NCBI GenBank assembly: GCA_913061075.1
Contig: CAJXSK010000002.1
Location: forward strand, 1-64,000
DNA: 64,000 nt
DNA from: an uncultured Piscirickettsiaceae bacterium
GTDB taxonomy: Bacteria > Pseudomonadota > Gammaproteobacteria > Methylococcales > Cycloclasticaceae
Reading direction: 5' to 3'
Below are positions 56,141 to 64,000 of this stretch, piece after piece. Numbering within the stretch: the stretch's first letter is position 1; every line of letters begins with the position of its first letter. The notes under the pieces were generated by a model. The model had not been told where the DNA came from and did not search any database. It worked only from the letters and a program-made list of their open reading frames with translations. The position numbers and the translations under genes are program-made.

Positions 56141-56202
56141 GGTATCTATCCTATCGTTAATATTAAAAGGTGATGTTTGTCGTGAAGTTATATAATAGGC
56201 GC

Positions 56203-56994
56203 ATGGATAACTATAAATCAATGGTTGAAAACGACGTGCTAAGTGATTTGCAAAGGCAGCAATTTTCTCGTGATGGTTTTTTGAAGGTGTCAGGCCTTGC
56301 AGACAATAATTTGTGTGAACGAATTTTAGGCGTTGTAACAGCGTCGATGGCGCCGGCGATTGGTCCGCTCGAATATGAAGCGGATGTTCATTACCAAGGT
56401 GCTCCACAATTTAGGGCAGATGACGGTGGTGACACGCCGCGACGATTATTGAATGCTTACGCGCGTGATTCAGTGTTTCGTGAATGGGCTTGTAGGCCAA
56501 ATATGGTGGCGTGTGTAAAGCAAATATTAGGTTCTGATACGTTACGGCTAACGCAAAACCACCATAATTGCATTATGACTAAGTTGCCTAAATTTAGTAG
56601 CCGTACCGATTGGCACCAAGATATTCGTTATTGGAGTTTTGATAAGCCAGAGTTAATTAATGTGTGGCTGGCATTAGGTAATGAGACACATGGAAACGGT
56701 GGAATGAAGTTAATTCCAGGTTCGCATCGAATGGAATTTGATCGTGGTAGATTAGATGCGAAATTGTTTTTACGGCAAGATTTAGATGAAAACAAGGTAT
56801 TGTTAGATAGTGCCGTTAATGTGGATATGAAGGCTGGTGATGTTTTGTTTTTTCATTGCCGTACGTTTCATGCTGCCGGAGCAAACACAACGGACAAGCC
56901 TAAATATTCTTTAGTGTTTAGCTACCATGCAGCGGATAACAACCCAATAAGAGGTACGCGTTCTTCTCGATTAGAAAGTGTAGACATTGCCTAA
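56203..56994 (+). CDS. Phytanoyl-CoA dioxygenase family protein (start trimmed)
   Basis: DWHQDIRYW (HxD) and FHCRTFHAAGANTTDKPKYSLVFSY. Confidence 0.87.
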   Translation: MDNYKSMVENDVLSDLQRQQFSRDGFLKVSGLADNNLCERILGVVTASMAPAIGPLEYEADVHYQGAPQFRADDGGDTPRRLLNAYARDSVFREWACRPNMVACVKQILGSDTLRLTQNHHNCIMTKLPKFSSRTDWHQDIRYWSFDKPELINVWLALGNETHGNGGMKLIPGSHRMEFDRGRLDAKLFLRQDLDENKVLLDSAVNVDMKAGDVLFFHCRTFHAAGANTTDKPKYSLVFSYHAADNNPIRGTRSSRLESVDIA

Positions 56995-57002
56995 GTTAAA
57001 CA

Positions 57003-58448
57003 TTAGTGAGCAGGTGCATCTGTTGGCAGTTGCACCGTAATCCACTTCCATTCAGTCAGTGCGTCCACATCTACTTCTACACCTTCACGCCCAAAGCCAC
57101 TTTCACCTGTACCGCCAAAAGGCACATGGGGTTCATCGTACAGTGTCGGTGCATTAATATGCACCATGCCCGCGTTGATGTTTTCTGCGAGCATTAGGGC
57201 GCTATTAATGTTGGTTGTGCAAATGGCTGCACTCAGTCCATAGCGCGTATCGTTAGCCATCTCTAAGGCGGCGTCAATATCTGCAACGGAATAAACAGAG
57301 GTCACGGGGCCAAAGGTTTCTTCGTAACAAACGGTCATGTCTTTGGTAACGCTCGTTAAAATAGTAGGTTGGCAGCGGTTACCTTCCCATTTACCACCGG
57401 TTAAGACGGTTGCGCCATTTTCTCGGGCATTCTCAATATGGTCGCGAATTCGGTCACGTTGACGCGGTGAAATAATGGGGCCTAAAATGGTACTCATTTC
57501 ACGCAAGTCTCCTAACGATAAACCGTTAGCGGCGGCACTGAATTTTTTAATAAATTCATCGTATACGGGCGTTTCAACAATAATTCTGCTGGATGCCATA
57601 CAGGCTTGGCCTTGGTATAAAAACATGCCAAAAACAGCCGTTTGAACCGCTTTGTCGATATCAGCATCGGCTAAAATAATTAAGGGGTTTTTGCCGCCTA
57701 ATTCAAGCACGGCATGCTTCATTTGCTTGCCGCAAATTTCGCTAATATGTTGCCCTACTCGGCTGGAACCGGTAAACATGACGGTTTTTACCAACGGATG
57801 GCCAGTTAAGTAATCACCAATGTCCATGCCAAAGCCAGATACAACATTCAGCGCGCCAGCAGGAAAGCCCGCTTCATGAATTAATTGTGCGAACCGATAT
57901 GACAGGGATGGTGCTTCTTCAGAGCAAAGTAACACCACGGTGTTCCCCGTCGCTAAAGGTGAGGCAATTAATTTAGCTGATTTAATCAGGGGTACATTAA
58001 AGGGTGTAATCGCAGCAATAACGCCCAGAGGTTTTCTGACGCTCATGCTTAGGCGGCCAGGCGTGTCAGAAGGGATGGTTTGCCCGGTAACGCGTCGTGC
58101 GGAGCCTGCGGCAGCACGCAAATGGCCAATAGCATACTGTACTTCAAATTGTGCCTTGTTAATGGGAGAGCCAATCTCATCAATTAGAATATCAAGAAAT
58201 TCTTGTCGGTCTCGTTCCAGCAAATCAGCCGCTTTACACAACATGGCTTCACGGTCTTTTGCTAAGCCTTTTCCGTACGTGCTAAAACAGGCTTGAGCGC
58301 TTTCTACGGCTTTGTTTATATCGGCTTCATTGCCTTCAGCAGCAGTGCAATAAAGCGAGTCATCAATAGGGTTAAGCACATCAAAGTACTGTCCGTTATT
58401 AGGTTTGCAATGTTCGCCGTTTATCCAAAGGTCGTATTGTTTTGTCAT
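57003..58448 (-). CDS. NAD(P)-dependent aldehyde dehydrogenase (vanillin/salicylaldehyde dehydrogenase-like)
   Basis: VLELGGKNPLIILADADID; YQGQACMASSRIIVE; FGGTGESGFGREGVE. Confidence 0.92.
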   Translation of the reverse strand: MTKQYDLWINGEHCKPNNGQYFDVLNPIDDSLYCTAAEGNEADINKAVESAQACFSTYGKGLAKDREAMLCKAADLLERDRQEFLDILIDEIGSPINKAQFEVQYAIGHLRAAAGSARRVTGQTIPSDTPGRLSMSVRKPLGVIAAITPFNVPLIKSAKLIASPLATGNTVVLLCSEEAPSLSYRFAQLIHEAGFPAGALNVVSGFGMDIGDYLTGHPLVKTVMFTGSSRVGQHISEICGKQMKHAVLELGGKNPLIILADADIDKAVQTAVFGMFLYQGQACMASSRIIVETPVYDEFIKKFSAAANGLSLGDLREMSTILGPIISPRQRDRIRDHIENARENGATVLTGGKWEGNRCQPTILTSVTKDMTVCYEETFGPVTSVYSVADIDAALEMANDTRYGLSAAICTTNINSALMLAENINAGMVHINAPTLYDEPHVPFGGTGESGFGREGVEVDVDALTEWKWITVQLPTDAPAH

Positions 58449-58479
58449 CAGAGCTTCCTAAATAGATTGGGGTGGCTTT

Positions 58480-59901
58480 TTAGCCAAAGTTGCGTTCAGG
58501 ATCCAACGCTTTTTTAACACGTTTATTCAGCGTTTGTAATCCGGCGTGACGGGTTTGGTTAACAGTATCTTGAAGGTCAGCATCAGATTGGCTAACTGAA
58601 TAACCTTGTGCATCAAATGCTTTAATTAAGGTATTAGCGAGTTTTTTTGCGGCGCTTAATTGGTCTTTGCCATAGCTGATGCTTAACTGGGCAAACATCG
58701 TGCGCCAAGTTAGTGCCAGCTGGCTGATAACGTTTTGTTCGCTACTATGACTATTGATAATTGCCTGCATGGCCAGCGCATCTTTGCCTTCTATTGGGCT
58801 AGCGAAATGTAAATTAATGACGGCGGTGTTGTCTAATTCTGAATTGCGCTTATTGAATTGCCCGAGCATTATTTTTTCACGCTGCGCCCAAATAGGATGC
58901 TTGTCGGTGTCATCTTTAAGTAAGAATTTTGCACCGTCAATTTCCCCTAGTGAGCCATTAACAGCACCCCAAACAACATCCACATTACCGGGTATGCCAT
59001 ACAATGCGCCATAAATATTCCATGTACCCAGTTGGTGCTTTTCTGCTGTGGTGTTATCGAATGCCGCGCTAAGCCCGCCATTAACAAACTGCATGACTTC
59101 GGATTCTGCCGAGGCAATAACAACGGTATTTGGCACCAGCATGTTAATTTTAAGAGAACGTAAAATTTCCACCGCTTGCTCCATTGCAGTATCGTTCGGT
59201 AGCTGTAGCATAAAGGGTTTATAAGCCGGAGGTTTAGGCATTAGCCACAGGCCAATTTTAGTCACAACGCCCATATTAGATTGGGTGAACAGGCCGTCCA
59301 TATACGGGCCATAGCCATATTTAAACAATTGCCATGTGTTGCTTTTTGGCATAGCACCCATGCCGGTTCTAACCAGGCTGCCATCAGCCAACATCACTTC
59401 CATTCCACATTGCATCATCAGTTGGTCGCCATACGGAGTGTAACCAAAATTACGGTTACAAATACTGCCCAATACGGATTGATTCGCATTTTTTTCGACA
59501 TCAACAGCAAAAGGAATATTGTTGTCTTCTAAGTGTTTGTTGAGTTGCTCATAACTAACGCCAGGTTCGATTAGGGCGTATGCATCTTTCTGGTTAATCT
59601 CAATAATGCTATTCATCCGTTGTAGGTCGATAACAACGATATCGCCGCTGGTTGGAATCGGCGCGGTGCCAATTTCACCTGGGCTAAGTAAATTAAATAA
59701 GGAGAAATCTTGGTCTATTGAAAAGGCCAGTAATTTTTGCAATTCATCAACAGTGGTAGGGATGATTGCGGCCAGTATGTCGCGTTTATCGTTATTAATT
59801 CTGTCGGCTAAAAACTGATAGTCAGAACTGTCATTGCCTTTTATAGGCACGATACTGGAAGTGCTTAAAAGACTGGTTAGTTTACTTACGATGTTTTCCA
59901 C
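58480..59901 (-). CDS. Divergent PCMH/VAO-family paralog lacking canonical FAD motifs
   Basis: Collinear with the 62049-63611 product (GYTPYGDQLMMQCGMEV, GPYMDGLFTQSNMGVVTKIGLWLMPKPP) but degenerate at flavin-contacting segments. Confidence 0.82.
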   Translation of the reverse strand: MENIVSKLTSLLSTSSIVPIKGNDSSDYQFLADRINNDKRDILAAIIPTTVDELQKLLAFSIDQDFSLFNLLSPGEIGTAPIPTSGDIVVIDLQRMNSIIEINQKDAYALIEPGVSYEQLNKHLEDNNIPFAVDVEKNANQSVLGSICNRNFGYTPYGDQLMMQCGMEVMLADGSLVRTGMGAMPKSNTWQLFKYGYGPYMDGLFTQSNMGVVTKIGLWLMPKPPAYKPFMLQLPNDTAMEQAVEILRSLKINMLVPNTVVIASAESEVMQFVNGGLSAAFDNTTAEKHQLGTWNIYGALYGIPGNVDVVWGAVNGSLGEIDGAKFLLKDDTDKHPIWAQREKIMLGQFNKRNSELDNTAVINLHFASPIEGKDALAMQAIINSHSSEQNVISQLALTWRTMFAQLSISYGKDQLSAAKKLANTLIKAFDAQGYSVSQSDADLQDTVNQTRHAGLQTLNKRVKKALDPERNFG

Positions 59902-59910
59902 AGTATAGGC

Positions 59911-60144
59911 CTATTTGTATTGTGCCGGCGGCATGATGACGGGGTAAGGTTTTTCAGGGTCAACCCTAAAGAACTCTTCACGTAAGTTGTAATCGATGGT
60001 TCTAGCCGGCTCGCTATCGCGCCAGGTAAAGGCACAGCTTTCACAGTTAAAAATAGTCCAAACAAGCTCGCCTTTGGCGTTTAGCCCTTTGTGTTCTGTG
60101 CGAATTTTGTTTTCTTCGGCTTGGCAACGTGGGCAAGTGCTCAT
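59911..60144 (-). CDS. Zinc-ribbon subunit D of hydroxyarylic acid decarboxylase (VdcD/BsdD-like)
   Basis: CPRC..CESC ribbon, FTWRDSEPARTI; overlaps UbiD stop. Confidence 0.8.
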   Translation of the reverse strand: MSTCPRCQAEENKIRTEHKGLNAKGELVWTIFNCESCAFTWRDSEPARTIDYNLREEFFRVDPEKPYPVIMPPAQYK

Positions 60145-61622
60145 GATTGACCTCCATTTTGTAATAGTTGAATAACCTTGGCGATAGCGTCAATTTCTGG
60201 GCCTGATGGCGGGGTCACTATTTTTGAATCGCCGCCTAATTTATCAGGTGGCATAAAGCTGGTGGCATCAATAATTAAACGATGGCCTTTACCAGCCACT
60301 TCGGCCGCAGGGTCAATCGGAATCATCGGCATATTAGGGATAACGATGGTGTCTTCTGCTCGGGTGCGTGTGGACAGTGCCCACATTACTTCATTTAAAT
60401 CAAAGGGGTCAACGTCATCATCAACCATGATTAAATTCTTTAAATACATGGTGCCGTGGGGCGTGCCCAAAGCGCGCATGGCGACCGATTTTGCAAAACC
60501 AGCAAAGCGATTTTTAACAGAAATAATACCGGTAAGGCCATGTTGATAGAGTGCATTAACGGCAACGACTTCGGGGAAGTCTTTGATCAATGCGGCATAA
60601 ATAGGCGCGGATGTATTTAAGCCAATCAATGTGTCGTGCTCGGTCCAGCCTCTGCCAATGTAGATATTTTCAAAAATAGGGTCATTACGGTGTGAAATGG
60701 CGGTCACTTTAAAACGCGGTATTTTTCGTACACCGCTGTAGCTGCCAGGGAATTCACCAAATGGGCCTTCAAAACTACGTACGCCATTCATCAGCTCGGC
60801 TTCAATCACCATTTCAGAATCTGCCAGAATGTCCATGCCATTGCCAGACTTAGTTAAGCGCATTGGGCTGCCCATCATTTGTGAGGCGTAGGCAAATTCG
60901 GACTCGTCATAGCCTATAGGCGTGGCAGCAAACATGCACATCGCGGGGTGGTTACCCAACATCACGGAAATCTTTAATGGTACGCCTTCTTGTTCGGCGG
61001 CCATAATGTGTCGTCCCATATCGTGGGCAGGCACGCTCAGTAAGGTGAACTCGCCAGGTGCTTGTACTTGAATACGATAAATACCGACATTTTGTTTGCC
61101 AAAATTATCAGGGTCGCGTGGGTCGCGGCTAACAACATTGGCTTTGCCAATATAAAAACCACCGTCGTATTCGTTAATACGATACAGCGGTAGCAGTTCA
61201 TATAAATTAAAGTTGCTGGTCAGTCTGTTCTCGTTAACGGGGGCTTTATCCGGTTCGATAAAATCTAATAAAGGCTCATCTGCGCCCCAACGAGAAATAA
61301 TATCGTAGAACAATTCTTTAATGGTGGTGCCTTTTGGGTGGCCTAATAACAACGCAAGGTTAGTGAAGCTACCGTGTACGCCCAACACCATTTTTTTACC
61401 GGGGTAACCGGCGATATTGTCAAAAATAACAGCGGGGCCATTCATTGAATCTCTACCGGCAGCAACTGCAACATTACGAATATCTGGTTCGGGGTAGACT
61501 TCTTCTGACCAATTAATGCATTGGCCGTTTTCTTTTAGAAATTCCAGAAAGTCACGCAGACTGCCAATGCGTCTAGCGACTTCTAGTGCTTTGTCTGACA
61601 AAGGAGGGTTCTTATCACTCAT
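60141..61622 (-). CDS. UbiD-family decarboxylase (start trimmed)
   Basis: RSFEGPFGEFPGSYSG catalytic Glu motif; NVGIYRIQVQ. Confidence 0.9.
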   Translation of the reverse strand: MSDKNPPLSDKALEVARRIGSLRDFLEFLKENGQCINWSEEVYPEPDIRNVAVAAGRDSMNGPAVIFDNIAGYPGKKMVLGVHGSFTNLALLLGHPKGTTIKELFYDIISRWGADEPLLDFIEPDKAPVNENRLTSNFNLYELLPLYRINEYDGGFYIGKANVVSRDPRDPDNFGKQNVGIYRIQVQAPGEFTLLSVPAHDMGRHIMAAEQEGVPLKISVMLGNHPAMCMFAATPIGYDESEFAYASQMMGSPMRLTKSGNGMDILADSEMVIEAELMNGVRSFEGPFGEFPGSYSGVRKIPRFKVTAISHRNDPIFENIYIGRGWTEHDTLIGLNTSAPIYAALIKDFPEVVAVNALYQHGLTGIISVKNRFAGFAKSVAMRALGTPHGTMYLKNLIMVDDDVDPFDLNEVMWALSTRTRAEDTIVIPNMPMIPIDPAAEVAGKGHRLIIDATSFMPPDKLGGDSKIVTPPSGPEIDAIAKVIQLLQNGGQS

Positions 61623-62052
61623 TGTTGGTGTCCTGTTGTTTGTATGCTTTGCCTTGCTCAATCATGTACTGGGCAAGGCTTTCTAATTCTTCGTCGTTAA
61701 TATCAGTCGGGCGAAATGGAGGCATTTCAAGCAAGCCATCACGCACGATATGGCTGATATAAGCACTGGTTAAATCAGTGCGTTGAACAAGCACAGCCAT
61801 GTCTTCAGCTCGGGCAAGTTTAAGCTTCATCGTCGCCGCATGGCCAAGCCCAGCAGCGTGGCAACCAGCACAGTGCAATTCATAAGTCACTCTGCCAGCA
61901 CGGGCAGTGCTTTTAGGAGTTTGAACAACTGGTGCGCTAACGATGGGTGTAGGTTTTTCAACGACAATCGGTTTGCTCGGTTCGGTCTGTTCACAACCGA
62001 ATAAGCTGATGGTGCCAGCGATAATTAATGCAGTTATTAGGGGCCTTTTCAT
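61615..62052 (-). CDS. Predicted lipoprotein c-type cytochrome (PCMH cytochrome subunit-like)
   Basis: Lipobox SLFGC, CAGCH heme site, MPPFRPTDI axial-Met region; overlaps flavoprotein stop. Confidence 0.87.
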   Translation of the reverse strand: MKRPLITALIIAGTISLFGCEQTEPSKPIVVEKPTPIVSAPVVQTPKSTARAGRVTYELHCAGCHAAGLGHAATMKLKLARAEDMAVLVQRTDLTSAYISHIVRDGLLEMPPFRPTDINDEELESLAQYMIEQGKAYKQQDTNNE

Positions 62053-63611
62053 GAGTCATCTCTCATACGTTTTGGCCAAATACCCATTTTTCCGGGTGAT
62101 AAAATACCGTTTGGATCGAGCTCGTCTTTAATCTTATGCTGGGTTTTTAATAAGGCGCTATCGTTCCAGCCATAAGAGTCGGCAATTTTGTCCATAAACG
62201 ATAAATGAGTACGGTATTCGCCGTAACCATGGTTTGCAGCATCGTCAATAAGCACATCGAATAGATCGTGAGCACGTTTTTTCTCTTCTGCGTTCATGCG
62301 GTCAAACATCAACATAAAGATATGATGTTGATCGCGCCAGCCGACTAAAAATTCGCCGATGTAATCAAAGCCGAATTCATGGGCGCGTTTGCGAATCATG
62401 TCAAATTGGCGATAAGAGTCTTTGCCATCTACCGCTGAAATGGGTGAAAAGTTGATATGACCACCGCCACCAACCCAGTTAAGTAAGCTGAACTCTGTCA
62501 TATTAGGTTTGCCGCGCATCAGTTCCACGCGGTAGTCCCAACCGGGGGTGCCTTTTCGCGTGTCATCGTAATGAAATTCTGCACCGGGAATTTTGCTAAA
62601 TGTGTCACGAATCAAATCCATGTTGTTTTTCATTATCGGTGGCGGGCCATACACTGCTGCATAAAAATTCCAAACACCTAAGCCTAAATCTGCGCCCAGT
62701 TTTTTCCGTGCGCTATCGGGCATTGGGCCTTTGCCGGTGTAGTACTGAGCCTTTGTGTGCGACATGGCAGCTTCCCATAGCAAATCCACCGTGGTGGCGG
62801 CATTGGGGATGACCATATTGAGTTTTAACGGCTGAGCTAAATCAGTAATCAACTCAAGGTCTTGCTCATGCGGCAGCGTTACCATAAACGGTGTGTAGCC
62901 GGGAGGTTCTGGCATGAGCCAAATGCCCATGCGGGTAATAACACCAAAGTTAGATTGGGTGAATAAGCCATCAACCCAAGGGCCTTGCCCATATTTATAC
63001 AGTGAGCTTGCTTTGCTATCGCCAGCAACACCGGTTTCAACAACAGTGCCATCAGCCAGTACCACTTGCATGCCGCATTGCATTAATAAATGGTCGCCAT
63101 ACGGGGTGTAGCCAGCGCCGTGGTCGGATGTATTACCAACAATGCCGCCCCAAGCAGGCGCGGCGCAATCAATCCAAAGTTTGTAGCCTTTTTCTTGAAT
63201 GTAATTGTACAAATCGTAGTAGCTTACGCCGGGTTCAACAACGGCATAACCATGCTTTTCATTGACTTCAATAATGCGGTTCATGCGCTTTAAATCCAGC
63301 ACGATATAGCCAGGTTTACGCGGGGCAGCACCACCGTAAGCAAAGTTTTTGCCAGTAGAAATAGTCCAAACCGGAATTTTATATTGGTTTACAACCGCAA
63401 GAATTTGTTGAATTTGCTCTAGCGTTTTTGGTGCAACGGCTGCCGAAGGCGCGAAGTCTTCATCCCGTGTTGTGTTGTACGGGTCGCGGTAACTGCGCAG
63501 TTCTTTTATGTCATCAGTAAATACAAACTCATCACCAATAATTTTTATAATCTCAGCGATAGCGCCGTTAAATTGTTCAAGATTAATGCCTTGCGGAAGC
63601 GGTTTATTCAT
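62049..63611 (-). CDS. FAD-dependent 4-alkyl/allyl-phenol oxidoreductase (PCMH/VAO family)
   Basis: VWTISTGKNFAYGGAAP, GYTPYGDHLLMQCGMQVVLADG, GLFTQSNFGVITRMGIWLMPEPPG, DPNGILSPGKMGIWP. Confidence 0.92.
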   Translation of the reverse strand: MNKPLPQGINLEQFNGAIAEIIKIIGDEFVFTDDIKELRSYRDPYNTTRDEDFAPSAAVAPKTLEQIQQILAVVNQYKIPVWTISTGKNFAYGGAAPRKPGYIVLDLKRMNRIIEVNEKHGYAVVEPGVSYYDLYNYIQEKGYKLWIDCAAPAWGGIVGNTSDHGAGYTPYGDHLLMQCGMQVVLADGTVVETGVAGDSKASSLYKYGQGPWVDGLFTQSNFGVITRMGIWLMPEPPGYTPFMVTLPHEQDLELITDLAQPLKLNMVIPNAATTVDLLWEAAMSHTKAQYYTGKGPMPDSARKKLGADLGLGVWNFYAAVYGPPPIMKNNMDLIRDTFSKIPGAEFHYDDTRKGTPGWDYRVELMRGKPNMTEFSLLNWVGGGGHINFSPISAVDGKDSYRQFDMIRKRAHEFGFDYIGEFLVGWRDQHHIFMLMFDRMNAEEKKRAHDLFDVLIDDAANHGYGEYRTHLSFMDKIADSYGWNDSALLKTQHKIKDELDPNGILSPGKMGIWPKRMRDDS

Positions 63612-63617
63612 CGTTTA

Positions 63618-64000
63618 TTATGATTGGGTTGAGTTGCTTGGAATAAGAAGCCATGAGACTAAAACATGATTGTCACCGGCTTGCGATAAAGATTGGGTTC
63701 GGCTGTTAGCTGTGTTGTCGGCAGCTGTTGTGTTTTGTAACGTGGCTAAGTTGTCTGCTAGCCATGTTGGCCATTTGTCACCGGCATTACCAAGGGCTCG
63801 TGCAAGCAAAGGCGCTTTTTCGGCGCTGCTTGTTACTTGATGTGCCAATGTGTTGTTCGACACCGTGTGGGTGGCTGAATAGGCCGTGTGATAACCATGT
63901 TGACTTGCTAATTGTTGTAAAACAAAAAAGTCAGAATCACGCGTAATGCCGCTTACCCAGCCGTTAGGGTTTTCTCTGCAAAATGCGTTAAAGGTATCAA
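63618..64000 (-). CDS. Unidentified protein, C-terminal part (runs off window)
   Basis: Open frame continues to the window edge (DTFNAFCRENPNGWVSGITRDSDFFVLQQLASQHGYHTAYSATHTVSNNT...); 6 bp upstream of the flavoprotein gene. Confidence 0.65.
   Translation of the reverse strand, partial: DTFNAFCRENPNGWVSGITRDSDFFVLQQLASQHGYHTAYSATHTVSNNTLAHQVTSSAEKAPLLARALGNAGDKWPTWLADNLATLQNTTAADNTANSRTQSLSQAGDNHVLVSWLLIPSNSTQS

Follow-up and report, generated by a model that had tools for sequence, protein, structure and literature searches.

The window considered here comprises the first 64,000 nucleotides of contig CAJXSK010000002.1 (C2 in the coordinates below; GenBank assembly GCA_913061075.1), from an uncultured Piscirickettsiaceae bacterium of the Cycloclasticaceae, and its far end holds a minus-strand operon that joins flavoproteins of the p-cresol methylhydroxylase (PCMH)/VAO type to a UbiD-type decarboxylase (Table 1). 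An earlier note had described this end of the window as a tight run of seven open reading frames (ORFs). All seven (7/7) were confirmed with their order, overlaps and short spacings, and hidden Markov models (HMMs) bore out the families. The 4-nucleotide (nt) overlaps lie at the PCMH1/cytochrome c and vdcC/vdcD junctions, while vdcC and the cytochrome c gene overlap by 47 nt from the annotated TTG start or by about 8 nt from a conserved internal ATG. The gaps are 6 nt between tatP and PCMH1, 9 nt between vdcD and PCMH2, and 31 nt between PCMH2 and the aldehyde dehydrogenase (ALDH) gene. The extent first given to the operon has to be corrected, as the window end cuts it: what had been listed as an unknown ORF is only part of tatP, and the operon's own ubiX had been missed. 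The contig runs on and holds the rest of tatP together with ubiX/vdcB, and the full order in Cycloclasticus is ubiX - tatP - PCMH1 - lipoprotein cytochrome c - vdcC - vdcD - PCMH2 - ALDH.

Table 1. Genes of the operon, with window positions unless marked C2.
Gene or product	Position	Strand	Basis
ubiX/vdcB, flavin prenyltransferase-like	C2:64227-64799 (outside window, upstream of tatP)		
tatP, 197-aa Tat-signal protein	63618..64000 (full gene C2:63618-64211)	-	MLTRRTFIKS signal; family HMM
PCMH1, PCMH/VAO-type flavoprotein, predicted dehydrogenase	62049..63611	-	FAD_binding_4 + FAD-oxidase_C; full catalytic residue set
Mono-haem lipoprotein cytochrome c	61615..62052	-	lipobox LFGC, CAGCH motif, Cytochrome_CBB3 E 1.2e-14
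VdcC, UbiD-family non-oxidative hydroxyarylic acid decarboxylase catalytic subunit	60141..61661	-	NF041204
VdcD, zinc-ribbon subunit	59911..60144	-	NF041205; two CXXC motifs
PCMH2, catalytically dead PCMH1 paralog, probable partner subunit	58480..59901	-	FAD_binding_4 only; residue losses
ALDH	57003..58448	-	Aldedh E 9e-156

The grouping of PCMH/VAO oxidation, an ALDH and UbiD/VdcCD into one unit, as the earlier note had supposed, is conserved well beyond the source genome. VdcC is present in 12 of the 18 genomes of the Cycloclasticus family, the same 12 carry PCMH2, and the gene order in them is constant wherever the contig is long enough. When an alignment of VdcC was scanned against 85,462 species genomes, 80 loci were recovered; PCMH-type genes share the locus with VdcC in 61 of the 70 at or above 60% VdcC identity, in alpha-, beta- and gammaproteobacteria, and in none of the 10 below 60%, all Bacillus bsdBCD loci included. 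Far from never being linked in relatives, UbiD and flavoprotein genes are thus regularly found together, and the combination is not special to the source genome: it occurs in many proteobacteria and even on the catabolic plasmid pNL1. Since the same gene order recurs in the 12 carriers within Cycloclasticus and in numerous unrelated proteobacteria, the neighbourhood lies far beyond chance, and a fortuitous grouping can be dismissed. Carriers are mostly hydrocarbon and polycyclic aromatic hydrocarbon (PAH) degraders and include Porticoccaceae, Rugosibacter, Sphingobium, Novosphingobium, Sphingopyxis, Erythrobacter, Croceicoccus and Immundisolibacteraceae, with plasmid-borne copies on pNL1, pF2 and pBN2. 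The ALDH gene lies inside the operon in nearly all relatives and is duplicated in most Cycloclasticus loci. No paper linking Cycloclasticus or sphingomonads to this operon was found among the open-licence papers searched.

Of the decarboxylase proteins, VdcC passes its family cut-off (NF041204, 663.9 bits against 650), as does VdcD (NF041205, 57.6 bits against 30), which has CPRC and CESC zinc knuckles. The operon UbiX falls below the VdcB cut-off (NF041206, 267 against 290 bits) but above that of PRK06029 (274.8 against 188), and since the VdcB model failed while UbiX subfamily models passed, the B subunit is better called UbiX than, strictly, VdcB. The nearest solved relative of VdcC is that of Sedimentibacter hydroxybenzoicus (7ae4), whose E278, H349 and Y381 correspond to E303, H374 and Y406, kept in all aligned members (with one unresolved X at E303). 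L182 and M423 are replaced by V210 and I447, at positions by which the pocket is widened in the other characterised VdcC (PMC8379154). VdcC, VdcD and UbiX are thus a predicted decarboxylase set of the benzoate type and not of the cinnamate type, which makes the route from an allylphenol through a cinnamate to a vinylphenol, raised in the earlier note, a poor fit and the less likely branch. The operon UbiX is also the only UbiX found in the genome, and a housekeeping UbiD lies elsewhere (sites listed: C2:64227-64799 and C5:199876-200481); for this reason it may have a second role in making ubiquinone.

The oxidising enzyme was examined by aligning 111 distinct PCMH-type proteins with VAD (PDB 8s7p) and reading nine active-site columns in VAO numbering. 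VAD, from Marinicaulis flavus, is the nearest characterised enzyme, at 53% identity, and PCMH1 retains the equivalents of Tyr108, Tyr187, Arg398, His422 and Tyr503-Arg504. The flavin-linking His at the H422 position is of the VAO type and occurs in PCMH1 of every locus, unlike the Tyr link of PCMH proper; the N5 proline is present in all but two loci, and both features are shared with VAD. The sole systematic change is Asp170 to Ala, found in every locus examined, which places Ala where VAD has the flavin-contacting Asp150. PCMH1 consequently has Ala-Pro at positions 170/171, the N5 pair of PCMH proper (A154/P155 in Pseudomonas putida; PMC7617285), and this combination of His link and Ala-Pro is absent from the representatives tabulated in the same study. 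The adjacent lipoprotein cytochrome c gene supplies the partner expected of a PCMH-type enzyme, and this cytochrome is likely the electron acceptor of PCMH1.

PCMH2 had been listed as a second flavoprotein paralog, but its active site marks it as catalytically dead: the P-loop is shortened, the equivalents of the catalytic Tyr108, the N5 proline and the Tyr503-Arg504 pair are lost, and the flavin-linking His is replaced in all but one protein, with Tyr187 and Arg398 equivalents retained. A complete and a dead copy occur together in 51 of the 61 scan loci with PCMH genes, and in six of the remaining 10, which are short or truncated, only the dead copy is seen. The 59 copies that have Tyr108, among them VAD, group together to the exclusion of the dead copies in a FastTree phylogeny (support 0.99), although the rooting is uncertain. 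The predicted fold of PCMH2 is nevertheless complete (TM 0.84-0.87 to VAD). Within Cycloclasticus its omega is about 0.085, against 0.02-0.08 for PCMH1, with synonymous sites near saturation; this low value marks PCMH2 as a maintained protein and, together with the intact ORFs, rules out a decaying gene. The residue audit likewise rules out two active flavoproteins, save for the Immundisolibacter-type PCMHb, whose flavin site is preserved. The simplest reading is that PCMH2 is a probable non-catalytic partner subunit of PCMH1. That it is instead a second active enzyme with altered chemistry appears improbable. The intact fold, the Tyr187 and Arg398 equivalents, the strong selection and the Immundisolibacter-type PCMHb, in which the flavin-linking His stays and the Tyr-Arg pair alone is lost, would accommodate such an enzyme, but everywhere else the shortened P-loop and the missing Tyr108, His422 and Tyr503-Arg504 equivalents tell against it. 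Moreover, in genome G120 the gene adjoins PCMH1, the cytochrome c gene and tatP where VdcC is missing, as would suit a subunit of PCMH1.

The complete form of the former unknown ORF, TatP, begins with MLTRRTFIKS, a twin-arginine translocation (Tat) signal, and is the only bearer of such a signal among the operon proteins. Of 142 PCMH loci, 85 have a match to an HMM built from the ORFs upstream of PCMH1, placed directly upstream of a PCMH ORF; the 40 loci without PCMH have none. The loci were fetched for their PCMH or VdcC content, several places twice, and the counts are therefore not randomly sampled. Among the 57 PCMH loci with no match, many are short stretches that end before the upstream gene, some distant PCMH relatives truly have no TatP, and on pBN2 a Tat-signal ORF at the same position was missed by the HMM. 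TatP also accompanies PCMH relatives that have no adjacent VdcC (e.g. loci L011, L013 and L043-L047). Searches of Pfam and NCBIfam gave no match to the family, and its confidently modelled structure matched no PDB fold at E <= 0.001. TatP thus belongs to a Tat-signal family with no earlier description, whose members were seen only next to PCMH genes. PCMH flavoproteins work in the periplasm though they have no signal peptide (PMC12724174), and a natural hypothesis is that TatP would carry them across the membrane. How a signal-less PCMH flavoprotein reaches the periplasm is an old question, which TatP makes directly testable.

The surroundings of the operon suggest where its products might go. 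Elsewhere on the same contig, and for the most part on the other strand, are a DmpR/MopR-like regulator, a multicomponent phenol hydroxylase, catechol 2,3-dioxygenase (C23O), 2-hydroxymuconic semialdehyde dehydrogenase and DmpE. About 36 kb from the operon lies a touABCDE-like four-component toluene/o-xylene monooxygenase (L085:2579-6099, that is C2:100579-104099), whose alpha subunit has TouA as its nearest solved structure and carries Asn at what we take to be the G103/E103 regiospecificity position. Orthologues of the phenol hydroxylase (DmpN) occur in 9 of the 12 operon-bearing Cycloclasticus genomes and in none of the six non-carriers (0/6). The classical 4-hydroxybenzoate route can be ruled out, as in none of the genomes of the genus did PobA score above its cut-off, and none has an intradiol dioxygenase; single LigB-family proteins do occur. 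With phenol hydroxylase and C23O at hand and no PobA or intradiol enzyme, a route from a 4-methylphenol through 4-hydroxybenzoate and phenol to catechol and meta-cleavage would suit these bacteria.

Taken together, the gene content makes it probable that this is a catabolic operon for removing the one-carbon para substituent of a phenol, with a 4-methyl- or 4-hydroxymethylphenol passing through a 4-hydroxybenzoate to a phenol or catechol. PCMH1, with dead PCMH2 and the membrane-anchored cytochrome c, would oxidise the benzylic carbon of a 4-methyl- or 4-hydroxymethylphenol by way of a quinone methide and water, the electrons entering the respiratory chain, and TatP could aid export or assembly of the signal-less flavoproteins. 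The ALDH would then oxidise the aldehyde to a 4-hydroxybenzoate. Given their families, VdcC and VdcD, using prenyl-FMN from the operon UbiX, may decarboxylate this acid to a phenol or catechol, and in Cycloclasticus the product would be passed to the phenol hydroxylase and to catechol meta-cleavage, both encoded nearby. The leading guess for the substrate is p-cresol or a dimethylphenol, which the neighbouring toluene/o-xylene-type monooxygenase could supply. A broader proposal, on which our judgement is almost evenly divided and leans slightly against, is that the operon represents a widespread, undescribed aerobic route of para-carbon removal, in which PCMH oxidation, ALDH and prenyl-FMN-dependent decarboxylation are combined in one operon and an obligate active/dead PCMH pair would be exported with the help of TatP, explaining how signal-less PCMH arrives in the periplasm.

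Several observations weigh against the route through 4-hydroxybenzoate and phenol. VAD does not act on p-cresol (PMC7617285), although it differs from PCMH1 in carrying Asp instead of Ala. The operon-bearing genomes G379 (a complete genome), G150, G262 and G357 have neither a multicomponent nor a PF07976-type phenol hydroxylase, Immundisolibacter-type genomes have no phenol hydroxylase, and no single-component phenol hydroxylase was found as a stand-in in G379 and f152. In Ammoniphilus sp. YIM 78166 (locus L140, 3000-12400), a VdcC with 70% identity stands beside C23O with no PCMH. No sigma-54 (-24/-12-like) site was found near ubiX in the eight loci checked, and on that ground DmpR-type control through sigma-54 was rejected. 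Of the earlier suggestion that p-cresol is converted through 4-hydroxybenzoate to phenol, the part that holds is the presence of oxidation and decarboxylation genes in one unit, while the reaction sequence stays conjectural in view of VAD and of the carriers with no phenol hydroxylase. G379, G150, G262 and G357 must either handle phenol with some other enzyme or have protocatechuate as the acid.

The latter alternative, in which PCMH1 and ALDH would turn 4-methylcatechol or another 3,4-dihydroxybenzyl compound into protocatechuate, for VdcCD to convert directly into catechol for C23O, needs no phenol hydroxylase. It would explain G379, which retains C23O and the meta pathway, and the Immundisolibacter-type genomes, and it agrees with L140, where VdcC, VdcD and UbiX are joined to C23O and phthalate-type genes. 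This Gram-positive locus also holds a DmpD-like hydrolase, a Rieske LigXa-like oxygenase and a class II aldolase-family protein; it was likely acquired by horizontal transfer, its gene content would allow a possible phthalate - protocatechuate - catechol route, and it suggests that the acid there is protocatechuate. Even so, protocatechuate as the natural acid of the operon seems unlikely, since a phenol hydroxylase is present in 9 of the 12 Cycloclasticus carriers and in none of the six non-carriers, and 4-methylcatechol can itself be meta-cleaved, so that the detour would gain little. A role in the use of lignin- or plant-derived vanillyl or 4-hydroxybenzyl alcohols, with vanillyl alcohol passing through vanillin and vanillate to guaiacol by VdcCD, is less probable still, although VAD oxidises both vanillyl alcohol and 4-hydroxybenzyl alcohol (PMC7617285) and relatives of VdcC decarboxylate vanillate (PMC8379154). 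The predominance of hydrocarbon and PAH degraders among the carriers does not suit it, the annotated neighbours include no O-demethylase, and the N5 pair of PCMH1 is the Ala-Pro of PCMH and not the Asp-Pro of VAD.

In the chemistry proposed for the operon, removal of a para carbon by oxidation and decarboxylation, enzyme families already known are arranged in a new way; most notable are the TatP family and the pairing with a pseudoenzyme. The p-cresol methylhydroxylase pathway of P. putida (pchA, pchC, pchX, pchF) likewise combines a signal-less flavoprotein with the N5 Ala-Pro pair, an adjoining cytochrome c and an ALDH. Unlike that pathway, which has a flavoprotein linked through Tyr384, the operon has the VAO-type His link and adds the dead paralog, TatP and VdcBCD, in a genus that has no PobA/protocatechuate route. 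In Geobacter metallireducens, PCMH reportedly consists of an active flavoprotein, an alpha' paralog thought to be inactive and a cytochrome c, a design that the one complete and one dead flavoprotein of this operon, recognised from sequence, would resemble. Geobacter differs as an anaerobe with a Tyr-linked flavin (Tyr394 in PcmI; PMC12724174) and no embedded decarboxylase. The operon resembles VdcBCD/BsdBCD of Sedimentibacter, Bacillus and Streptomyces in its UbiX-type B, UbiD-type C with catalytic residues kept, and zinc-ribbon D, but its VdcC is only about 45% identical to Bacillus BsdC, and its B gene is separated from C and D by PCMH genes, inside an oxidation operon. On pNL1 of Novosphingobium aromaticivorans F199 (L180) the operon is arranged as ubiX-tatP-PCMH1-ALDH-vdcC-vdcD-PCMH2-cytc; pNL1 is reported to encode p-cresol catabolism (PMC3946609), and the current pNL1 record names the operon genes only generically.

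If the proposed function is correct, bacteria that are prominent in degrading oil and PAHs would have a way to process 4-methylphenols that bypasses 4-hydroxybenzoate 3-hydroxylase and protocatechuate. Sensitivity to oxygen is described for UbiD enzymes whose direct target is an aromatic ring (PMC8379154), which makes their use in organisms that attack aromatics with oxygenases worth an experiment. PCMH1 and PCMH2 also offer a widespread active/dead enzyme pair for study.

Other genes lie around the operon. A PhyH-family dioxygenase gene on the plus strand (window 56170-56994) converges on its ALDH end and is kept in some, not all, Cycloclasticus loci. An unannotated ORF of about 77 aa (L003:6874-7107, plus strand) lies between ubiX and the divergent DmpR-like regulator. 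Finally, a membrane fatty-acid-desaturase-like hydroxylase gene occurs near the operon (L131 and L171, about 20.3 kb; L003:10048-10968), and the 67% identity between the Cycloclasticus and Novosphingobium proteins suggests that it may travel together with the operon cluster.

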